Origin: an uncultured Prevotellaceae bacterium | GTDB lineage: Bacteria > Bacteroidota > Bacteroidia > Bacteroidales > Muribaculaceae | NCBI GenBank assembly: GCA_900320245.1 | Contig: ONRP01000020.1 | Coordinates: forward strand, 18,758 to 62,945 | Length of the DNA stretch: 44,188 nt | Direction: 5' to 3' | Part shown: in pieces, positions 9,995 through 33,730 of the stretch | Layout: each line of letters starts with the position of its first letter | How positions within the stretch are numbered: the first letter of the stretch is position 1 | Notes under the pieces: generated by a model | Told to the model about the DNA's origin: nothing | Database searches by the model: none | The model's input: only the letters and a program-made list of their open reading frames with translations | Program-made: the position numbers and the translations under genes

Positions 9995-10028
9995 TTGGCA
10001 AAAGGATTTTTTTGCCGAATTTTTTAAG

Positions 10029-10090
10029 AAATCAGGCTGCGCCTCAACAAAACTCAAATAAATTTGGTTTTGTATTCGGCTTGCACTAAT
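10029..10090 (+). repeat. Promoter-bearing palindromic repeat, copy 1 of tandem pair
   Basis: 62-base unit identical to 10098-10159. It contains the left box CTGCGCCTCAA (10037-10047), an imperfect palindrome with arms CAAAAC-T-CAAAT (10048-10059) and ATTTG-GTTTTG (10062-10072) with one bulged T at 10054, and the right box TTCGGCTTGCACT (10075-10087). TTTG at 10063-10066 and TAATGTTG at 10087-10094, 20 bases apart, form a promoter with one mismatch in the -7 element. A diverged relative is at 33460-33528. Confidence 0.9.
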
Positions 10091-10097
10091 GTTGGAT

Positions 10098-10159
10098 AAA
10101 TCAGGCTGCGCCTCAACAAAACTCAAATAAATTTGGTTTTGTATTCGGCTTGCACTAAT
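10098..10159 (+). repeat. Promoter-bearing palindromic repeat, copy 2 of tandem pair
   Basis: Exact 62-base copy of 10029-10090, offset by 69 bases. Sequence identity stops right after ACTAAT: copy 1 continues GTTGG, copy 2 continues TTTGC, so only copy 2 has a perfect -7 element. Confidence 0.9.
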
Positions 10160-10163
10160 TTTG
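10132..10163 (+). promoter_or_regulatory. Promoter of the S1-fucosidase-YwqG operon inside the repeat
   Basis: TTTG (10132-10135), 20 bases, TAATTTTG (10156-10163): perfect consensus. The -33 element lies in the right arm of the repeat palindrome and the spacer holds the right box TTCGGCTTGCAC. The ATG is 21 bases downstream of the -7 element. Confidence 0.75.
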
Positions 10164-10184: not shown

Positions 10185-11018
10185 ATGAAGATAGGAGAAT
10201 ACAACGAGTTGCGCATCAACCGAATGGTCGATTTTGGCGCATACCTCATCGACGAAGACACCCACGAGGTGTTGCTGCCCAAGCGCTACCTTACACCCGA
10301 TATGCAGGTGGGCAACAACATACGTGTGTTTGTTTATAACGACAGTGAGAACCGCCCAGTTGCTACTACCGAGCAACCCCACGCCGTTGTGGGCGACTTC
10401 GCCCTGATGCGTGTCAAGGCGGTGAACCAGGTGGGCGCCTTTCTGGACTGGGGCCTTGTGGCCAAAGACCTGCTGGTGCCCTTCGGTGAGCAGCGCGTTG
10501 ACATGAAAGTGGGCCGCAGTTACGTCGTACGTGTTTATCTCGACGAGGCCAGCCACCGCATTGTCGCGAGTGCCAAACTTGCCAAGTTCCTTAACCGCAC
10601 CGACCCCGATTACTACCATCGCCAGAAGGTGGAGGTGCTCGTCGTGCAGCGCAGTGATCTGGGCTACCGTGTCATAGTAGATAATGCCCATTGGGGCCAG
10701 ATTTACCAGAACGAGACCTATCAGGATGTGAATGTCGGTGACCGCCTGACGGCATTTGTCAAGCAGGTGCGTCCCGATGGCAAGATAGACCTTACCCTTG
10801 CCAAGATTGAAAAAATGCGTGTCGACGACCTGGCTGATCGCATCTTGGACTACCTTGAGAGTCACGGCGGCGAGATGAAACTCACCGACAAGAGCGATCC
10901 CGACGCCATCAATCAGGCTTTCAACTGCAGCAAGAAAGACTTCAAGAAAGCCCTTGGCCTGTTGTACAAACAACAGAGAGTCACACTGGGCGACACCGTC
11001 AAATTAGCGAAATTATAA
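10185..11018 (+). CDS. S1-domain RNA-binding protein, CvfB/YitL family
   Basis: 277 residues, matching the CvfB-like family of RNA-binding proteins with several S1-like OB domains and a C-terminal winged helix. The first OB segment is MKIGEYNELRINRMVDFGAY with LIDEDTHEVLLPKRY; the second is FALMRVKAVNQVGAFLDWGL with KDLLVPFGEQ; the third is GYRVIVDNAHWGQIYQNETY to LTAFVKQVRPDGKIDLTL. The winged helix is from about residue 215 (RILDYLESHGGEMKLTDKSD, then FNCSKKDFKKALGLLYKQ). In Staphylococcus CvfB affects virulence gene expression; the role in Bacteroidales is not known to me. It is the first gene after the duplicated repeat promoter and lies 11 bases before a fucosidase gene. Confidence 0.92.
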   Translation: MKIGEYNELRINRMVDFGAYLIDEDTHEVLLPKRYLTPDMQVGNNIRVFVYNDSENRPVATTEQPHAVVGDFALMRVKAVNQVGAFLDWGLVAKDLLVPFGEQRVDMKVGRSYVVRVYLDEASHRIVASAKLAKFLNRTDPDYYHRQKVEVLVVQRSDLGYRVIVDNAHWGQIYQNETYQDVNVGDRLTAFVKQVRPDGKIDLTLAKIEKMRVDDLADRILDYLESHGGEMKLTDKSDPDAINQAFNCSKKDFKKALGLLYKQQRVTLGDTVKLAKL

Positions 11019-33423: not shown

Positions 33424-33436
33424 CTCGGCTTGCACT
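33424..33436 (+). repeat. Right-box remnant of the promoter repeat
   Basis: CTCGGCTTGCACT, followed by TCGTTGG, matches the right box and flank of repeat copy 1 at 10075-10095 (TTCGGCTTGCACT, AATGTTGG). It lies 24 bases upstream of the full copy, echoing the tandem arrangement at 10029-10159; the left half is missing or eroded. Confidence 0.6.
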
Positions 33437-33459
33437 TCGTTGGCTTTGCCGAAGATAGT

Positions 33460-33528
33460 CTGCGCCTCAACAATGCTCAAGAAAAAACCTATTTTTCTTG
33501 GCATTGTGTTCGGCTTGCACTATCTTTG
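33460..33528 (+). repeat. Promoter-bearing palindromic repeat, diverged copy
   Basis: Left box CTGCGCCTCAA (33460-33470), identical to that at 10037-10047. The palindrome has arms CAATGC-T-CAAGAAAAA (33471-33486) and TTTTTCTTG-GCATTG (33492-33506), 15 bp with one bulged T at 33477. The right box is TTCGGCTTGCACTA (33509-33522). The arm sequences differ from the 10 kb copies but remain complementary, and the bulged T is kept. Confidence 0.85.
33497..33528 (+). promoter_or_regulatory. Promoter of the small membrane protein-dxs-trkA-trkH operon
   Basis: CTTG (33497-33500), 20 bases, TATCTTTG (33521-33528). As at 10132-10163, the -33 element sits in the right arm of the repeat and the spacer carries TTCGGCTTGCAC. 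Confidence 0.75.
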
Positions 33529-33553
33529 CAGATTGAACCAAACAATTTTGAAG

Positions 33554-33730
33554 ATGACTGCCGGTAACCTCATACGGTTTGTGTGCATACTGTTGTTGTG
33601 GCTCTTTTTGTGCTACATCCTGATCACACGTGCTGCACGCATTGATTTCATGGTGATATTTACCATCGTGGCATCAGGCATCATCGTGTTTGTTCCTCTC
33701 TATAAGAAATATGTGAGAAAGAAGAATTGA
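33554..33730 (+). CDS. Small two-TM membrane protein upstream of dxs (58 residues)
   Basis: Starts at the ATG at 33554, 25 bases after the -7 element; an upstream extension of the frame to 33317 would cross a strong terminator and the promoter and is rejected. The product MTAGNLIRFVCILLLWLFLC then YILITRAARIDF and MVIFTIVASGIIVFVPLYKK has two hydrophobic helices (about residues 6-25 and 33-50) and a basic end (YVRKKN). It ends 2 bases before the dxs ATG, so the two are translationally linked. I do not recognise a family; a small inner-membrane protein is the most that can be said. Confidence 0.75.
   Translation: MTAGNLIRFVCILLLWLFLCYILITRAARIDFMVIFTIVASGIIVFVPLYKKYVRKKN

Follow-up and report, generated by a model that had tools for sequence, protein, structure and literature searches.

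The window analyzed here is a stretch of 44,188 nucleotides from an uncultured Prevotellaceae bacterium, and its feature at positions 33460-33528 is probably one copy of a small mobile, promoter-carrying palindromic repeat of a REPIN- or MITE-like kind. Genome comparison shows the repeat to be dispersed, covarying and promoter-associated, and its copies and arrays to have been gained, lost or altered among congeners; in most compared cases, the element stands where congeners have a plain -7 box. Its right end (a -33 element in the right hairpin arm, a spacer of 19-20 bases and a -7 box) has putative promoter activity, as judged from these motifs and the selective retention of the -7 box.

Organization and covariation of the repeat

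In the window, the left-box query CTGCGCCTCAA (at most one mismatch) matches solely at 10037, 10106 and 33460, each time exactly, and the right box TTCGGCTTGCACTA is found exactly at 10075, 10144 and 33509. Because a degraded copy of the latter (two mismatches) lies at 33424, the 33 kb locus, too, is a tandem arrangement, with one unit and a truncated upstream one that consists of the right part alone; the 10 kb locus comprises two units. The unit period is 85 bases at the 33 kb locus and 69 at the 10 kb locus. With up to two mismatches, four right boxes are seen in the window versus a mean of 0.34 in shuffled sequences, none of 100 shuffles reaching four. The left box by itself is a weak signal there (13 of 100 shuffles reach three matches at one mismatch or fewer). 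The first-pass annotation had described two boxes, a bulged hairpin between them and a following TAnnTTTG at both loci. The box matches are exact and the hairpins are as described; TAnnTTTG, however, is present in the gene-proximal unit of each locus only, and the first 10 kb copy carries TAATGTTG in its place.

At the 10 kb locus (all features here are on the forward strand), AATTTT at 10018-10023, left of the array, is the probable remnant of a native -7 box, as indicated by congeners with a single copy there (gccgaactttgcaaa and similar); it recurs past the array at 10157-10162. Copy A consists of a left box (AAATCAGGCTGCGCCTCAA, 10029-10047), a variable hairpin with the bulged T (10046-10074), a right box (10075-10088) and the dead -7 box (10087-10094). 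Copy B has a left box at 10098-10116, a variable hairpin at 10115-10143 with the -33 TTTG in its right arm (10132-10135), a right box at 10144-10157 and the intact -7 box TAATTTTG at 10156-10163. The gene downstream (10185-11018) encodes a CvfB-like protein of 277 residues (Pfam S1_2 and CvfB_WH). At the 33 kb locus, the degraded right box of the 5'-truncated upstream copy, which has lost its -7 box, occupies 33424-33437; it is followed by the left box AAGATAGTCTGCGCCTCAA (33452-33470), the variable hairpin (33469-33508), whose right arm gives the -33 TTGG at 33498-33501, the right box (33509-33522) and the intact -7 box TATCTTTG (33521-33528). A small ORF (33554-33730) is nearest downstream, followed by the gene of 1-deoxy-D-xylulose-5-phosphate synthase (dxs, ORF from 33727). 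The Bacteroides promoter consensus given in PMC7366714 has TTTG near -33 and TAnnTTTG at -7, and the live units of both loci fit it, with TTTG 20 bases and TTGG 19 bases upstream of the respective -7 boxes.

Lined up by eye, a unit begins with AAnnTAGGCNNCGCCTC, GG or AA and a variable hairpin, often with a bulged T, and ends with CnC or TnT, TCGGCTTGCAC and TAnnTTTG. Read in reverse complement, the right end resembles the left box: the two have AAnnTAG and GCC in common and differ in two short stretches. The element extends further left than first noted: AAnnTAG, which precedes the left box, is able to pair with CTAnnTT in the -7 box, and the fold predicted for the 33 kb unit joins AAGATAG to CTATCTT. 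The foot of the hairpin is nnTAG, where nn is mostly GA, then AT and GG. The left arm in L008 comes close to a complete inverted right end, with a divergent ORF beginning 10 bases behind it; with right-type ends on both sides between two divergent ORFs, this copy may act as a bidirectional promoter. Folded as single-stranded DNA, the region 33448-33532 scores far better than shuffled sequences (z = -6.03, 0 of 200 shuffles). Scores are weaker for both copies at 10 kb (z = -1.93 and -1.85), and folding at the junction 33424-33470 is no better than in shuffles (z = 0.02).

The covariation proposed in the first-pass annotation was tested on 160 distinct intact right boxes (L001-L180), 92 of which have a left box by pattern; the other 68 were left out. 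In 77 of the 92, the nn preceding TAG and that of TAnnTTTG are reverse complements of each other (28.0 ± 3.5 in 5000 shuffles, maximum 40), and in 85 of the 92 complementarity holds for the two pairs flanking the bulge of the right arm (40.1 ± 3.9 in shuffles, maximum 53). The latter occur in six combinations: GG-CnC (53), AA-TnT (24), AG-CnT (4), GA-TnC (2), AC-GnT (1) and GC-GnC (1). Hairpin arms pair at a mean of -11.3 kcal/mol with their own partner (DNA parameters) versus -6.2 with swapped partners in 88 elements (2000 permutations, minimum mean -6.9; 4 of the 92 elements left out), and the own partner is the best one in 42 of the 88. Among 30 non-redundant elements, the values are -11.3 and -6.1 (minimum -7.75), the own arm being best in 20. 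The shuffle controls leave shared ancestry in; given the six pair combinations and the non-redundant arms, common descent alone is a poor account of the covariation.

Selection on a cruciform, a protein site or a transcript structure had been put forward to explain such a pattern. The covariation is real; as for its function, a fixed regulatory site fits badly with the presence and absence of the element among congeners (see below). A leader or terminator hairpin of an upstream transcript would agree with the upstream junction stems, which are often GC-rich, some with TTCG-like loops or T runs after them (by eye). Yet, since the hairpin lies 5' of the live -7 box, the expected main transcript would not contain it, and no Rfam family matches the window at its gathering score; an RNA structure is therefore very improbable.

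Distribution and turnover between congeners

The repeat had been described as dispersed, and it is: in the genome of the window (3.02 Mb, 73 contigs), TTCGGCTTGCACTA with at most one mismatch occurs 38 times versus 3 in the reversed sequence, which served as the control. Exact CGGCTTGCACTAnnTTTG / CGGCTTGCACTANNTTTG is found 23 times and CTTGCACTANNTTTG 34 times, both versus 0 in the control. The left box ANNYAGGCNNCGCCTC, searched without the right box, also has 23 matches versus 0, and a right-box-like sequence lies downstream of 21 of these (20 detected by pattern, L410 by eye); the remaining two are L420, with a degenerate right box, and L421, without any. Among 31 genomes (that of the window and 30 relatives), CGGCTTGCACTANNTTTG is present in 15, namely in 15 of the 19 within the genus and in none of the 12 beyond it.

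At least 116 stretches in public genomes match, and 79 of the 80 public matches listed have titles of the Bacteroidales group (for example Prevotella, Tannerella, Alistipes, Barnesiella and Muribaculaceae); Leyella stercorea DSM 18206 and Barnesiella sp. An55 are examples of cultured carriers. The left box is recognizable by pattern at about half of the right boxes in other genomes (60 of 120). A search of Bacteroidales genomes, as suggested in the first-pass annotation, found the strict two-box pattern in 3 of 393 genomes of the order, and a looser right-box pattern in 14 of 159, with more than two copies only in G000 (34) and G039 (6). The element is thus patchy and abundant only in some lineages. 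Some right-box matches (among them L069, L077, L117, L142, L167 and L169) stand in another context and probably do not belong to this element. A search for phage or plasmid carriers gave no match; four viral contigs contain a right-box match, with no left box within the 80 bases inspected in any of them. In the open-licence literature searched, no description of this repeat was found, and the three box strings turn up in 6 papers, none of them on Bacteroidales by its title.

Comparison by eye of 30 orthologous promoters with the congener G016 revealed the element in both species at 16, a half element in G016 at one, and presence in one species only at 13 (6 only in the genome of the window, 7 only in G016). 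These promoters represent a subset of the copies of each genome. On the side of the window's genome, 18 elements were considered, 16 of which have a G016 ortholog (L014 has no match and L019, with a weak match of 71%, was left out): 9 are present in both, one is a half element in G016 (L007) and 6 are absent there (L004, L018, L020, L030 and both window loci). On the G016 side, 14 of 15 elements have an ortholog (L327 does not); 7 of them are present in the window's genome (the pair L330/L351 being of mixed kind) and 7 are absent (L318-L321, L328, L329 and L332). The 13 plain sites carry an exact TAnnTTTG at the aligned place in 9 cases, one displaced by tens of bases in 2 and an imperfect one in 2. 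Further plain sites exist in G002, G006 and G008, and shared sites often differ in hairpin type or copy number (e.g., L001, L003, L005 and L017). In L005 (1530-1628), an element copy is immediately followed by a TPP riboswitch (Rfam RF00059, 64 bits), and congeners have different elements or a plain promoter there.

The cleanest insertion is the 10 kb locus. Twelve congeners have no right box (at most three mismatches) in the 400 bases 5' of the gene, and the element is absent from G016 by eye. Congeners read gccgaa(c)tttgcaaa and the genome of the window gccgaatttt-[array]-aattttgcaaaa, with both native flanks kept and AATTTT on either side. At the dxs promoter, no right box with up to three mismatches is seen in the congeners compared over the stretch examined, which is just 218 bases in L216; G016 has a plain TATCTTTG, and in G005 (L225) a degenerate half copy with four mismatches may be present. 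A constant target duplication was not apparent: only the 10 kb locus is clean, the other empty sites being ambiguous or replacement-like, and left-flank alignments at 70-85% identity are mostly too diverged for exact ends. Agreement of the -7 nn between an element and its plain ortholog, considered as a test of the origin of the box, amounts to only 6 of 11 and is uninformative because TC is the commonest.

Some events appear to be other than simple insertion. The left flank of L018 is 96% identical to G016 (L296) over 330 bases and is followed by an apparent replacement of 65 bases by 65; half elements, composed of the right arm and the right box, also occur. A spread by recombination over short homologies or by template switching could produce such cases without any transposase: promoter segments would be copied between sites, anchored in the -33, -7 and box sequences, and a folded strand would let one arm correct the other. 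The equal-length replacement in L018, half elements that start at a native -33-like sequence, the hairpin of L001, in which two hairpin types seem to be joined as a chimera, and the lack of a mobilizer at the Y1 transposase loci examined all agree with it. Against it stand the clean insertion at 10 kb, where both native flanks are retained, and the right-box-like partner of 21 of the 23 left boxes. This route is considered rather unlikely.

Tandem arrays and downstream genes

Loss of the -7 box depends on the position within the array. For this count, right boxes were taken regardless of their -7 box. In the genome of the window, whose search did not demand TTTG, 18 of 20 gene-proximal copies retain an intact -7 box, versus 2 of 17 upstream copies. 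The corresponding figures in G016 are 20 of 22 and 0 of 16, the former being biased upward because part of the loci came from a search demanding an intact -7 box. Each set includes one upstream copy (in L337 and L324) that probably does not represent an element, and 7 right boxes of the first genome and 6 of the second (5 and 4 intact) were set apart as lacking element context. The recurrent losses are changes of TAnnTTTG to TAnnGTTG (or GTTC) and one-base deletions. Such a pattern is what would be left by selection for a single start point. The junctions between copies (e.g., L042, L108, L127 and L176) often form a GC-rich hairpin with varied complementary stems, and some of these hairpins look terminator-like (both by eye).

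A co-directional ORF starts at most 250 bases downstream of each of the 28 gene-proximal copies with an intact -7 box in the genome of the window. Of these copies, 21 overlap no ATG-initiated ORF of 150 or more residues; 7 do, and several of the overlapping ORFs are upstream extensions of the downstream frame. In three copies (L029, L334 and L335), the -7 box ends 5-6 bases ahead of the predicted start codon, so their mRNAs may be nearly leaderless.

The genes behind the element are diverse. When 20 downstream proteins from the genome of the window were compared with Pfam, 19 matched families and no family was common to two of them; the families include glutamine synthetase, uridine kinase, DXP synthase, RelA/SpoT, sigma-54, LptF/LptG, enolase and methionine sulfoxide reductase. 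A comparison of 93 downstream proteins from public genomes with one another gave 8 similar pairs: four are 86-95% identical and apparently come from close relatives, one is a generic ABC-domain match and the other three represent two more distant recurrences, the expectation being 2-3 pairs for 1500-2000 equally likely families. The gene sets downstream speak against a regulon. A regulatory site, bound by a dimeric protein or extruded as a cruciform and governing a regulon, would explain the hairpin covariation, which is strong, as well as the overlap of the element with the -33 region and spacer and the retention of hairpins in upstream copies, where most -7 boxes are dead. Its arm sequence is free, though, unlike that of most protein sites, and a fixed site is a poor fit to presence in only one species at 13 of 30 promoters, to hairpin types that differ at the same site and to unrelated downstream genes, which renders this explanation quite unlikely.

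Possible mode of spread and related systems

If the repeat is mobile, it would insert at a -7 box or overwrite the sequence up to it, and such an event would be tolerated since it restores the promoter. Tandem arrays would build up as insertion or duplication recurs at the -7 box, and within them mainly the gene-proximal -7 box would remain under continued selection. The hairpin would serve spreading: as has been suggested for REPINs, copying would need a folded strand and in this way preserve the near-palindrome, and site choice may be aided by AAnnTAG pairing with the -7 box. A bolder version is a doubtful proposition: the repeat would be a new type of mobile DNA that recognizes active promoters, its folded single strand pairing through the guide AAnnTAG with TAnnTTTG of the -7 box, perhaps when the open complex of RNA polymerase leaves that strand accessible, and its insertion would provide the gene with an entire new promoter. 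The complementarity of the left-box and -7 nn in 77 of 92 elements could also arise inside a co-moving palindrome. Mobility has its own difficulties. Two upstream copies in the genome of the window retain an intact -7 box, a constant target duplication was not apparent at the empty sites, no enzyme was found among the Y1 loci examined, and the L018 replacement, the half elements and the 68 of 160 right boxes without a left box fit recombination better than classic transposition.

RAYTs would be the obvious candidates for a mobilizer. Y1 transposases match in 18 of the 19 genomes searched; paired boxes flank none of the 30 loci examined in these genomes, and a single box match occurs at 4. Y1/RAYT enzymes were not supported as flanking mobilizers at these loci. 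The RAYT-like genes L253, L254 and L267 have other repeats alongside, not this element (by eye), such as ggggtcggttcctttttcctc at L253 and gtgacacggggacggttcttttgtcac at L267. An autonomous copy with a gene between left and right boxes was also considered, and none was seen among the left boxes of the window's genome. A second family of promoter-embedded palindromes, ...TAAATTCCTCACGCTCGACAATG-hairpin-CATTGTTCTCGCTTAATCGGAATTTTGCACTACCTTTG, was noticed at L420/L351 (contig C52 of the window's genome, ~69.8 kb), L281, L330, L425 and L426; its exact right part occurs in 2 of 19 genomes (3 places), with variants elsewhere.

By analogy, the element would work like a promoter-carrying REPIN or MITE. 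Mobile promoters, reportedly described by Matus-Garcia in 2012 ('Promoter propagation in prokaryotes'), are said to place similar promoters before unrelated genes. The element likewise represents a similar promoter sequence ahead of unrelated genes that varies between relatives; unlike mobile promoters, the unit that moves would here be a structured near-palindrome, which covaries and forms tandem arrays. Correia elements of Neisseria are also short repeats with promoters, whose sequence, ends and target would differ from those of this element.

REP sequences and REPINs are associated with RAYT transposases (PMC3116915, PMC8049555, PMC6006769 and PMC3733652). As outlined in these papers, they are small intergenic inverted pairs that form hairpins, with many copies per genome and tandem clusters, and the element resembles them in these respects. 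Related inverted repeats that fold, the hallmark of a REPIN doublet, are present here, most clearly at 33 kb (z = -6.03) and less so at 10 kb (about -1.9). The element is set apart from REPINs because neither a RAYT gene flanked by the same repeat (0 of 30 Y1 loci) nor a fixed GTAG/CGTC tag at the hairpin foot was found, the foot being nnTAG; moreover, unlike REPINs, it lies within promoters and has a -7 box at its end. No match between this repeat and the Bacteroidetes Y1 subclass with atypical flanking structures, as characterized in PMC6006769, has been made, and the subclass remains a lead. The same source describes a short guide 5' of the hairpin in IS200/IS605 ends that interacts with the flanking target, and AAnnTAG could act in this way on TAnnTTT; unlike in IS200/IS605 as presented there, the putative guide varies along with the target, and no transposase was found at the loci examined. 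The BrickBuilt MITE of Porphyromonas gingivalis, segments of which have promoter activity in E. coli assays according to PMC4596501, is a short intergenic repeat, as the element mostly appears to be (21 of 28 copies overlap no long ORF). The ends of the element are only partly inverted (by eye), and no perfect terminal inverted repeat, constant target duplication or parent IS was seen; the element also differs in coinciding with the -7 box.

The Bacteroidales promoter (TTTG / TAnnTTTG) is unusual, and the repeat sits exactly on it and differs among close relatives. If the mobile-repeat explanation is true, the element, rebuilding the promoter wherever it lands, would give Bacteroidales a general means of promoter turnover before metabolic and other basic genes, and would offer a countable system for how short palindromes move without a visible transposase.
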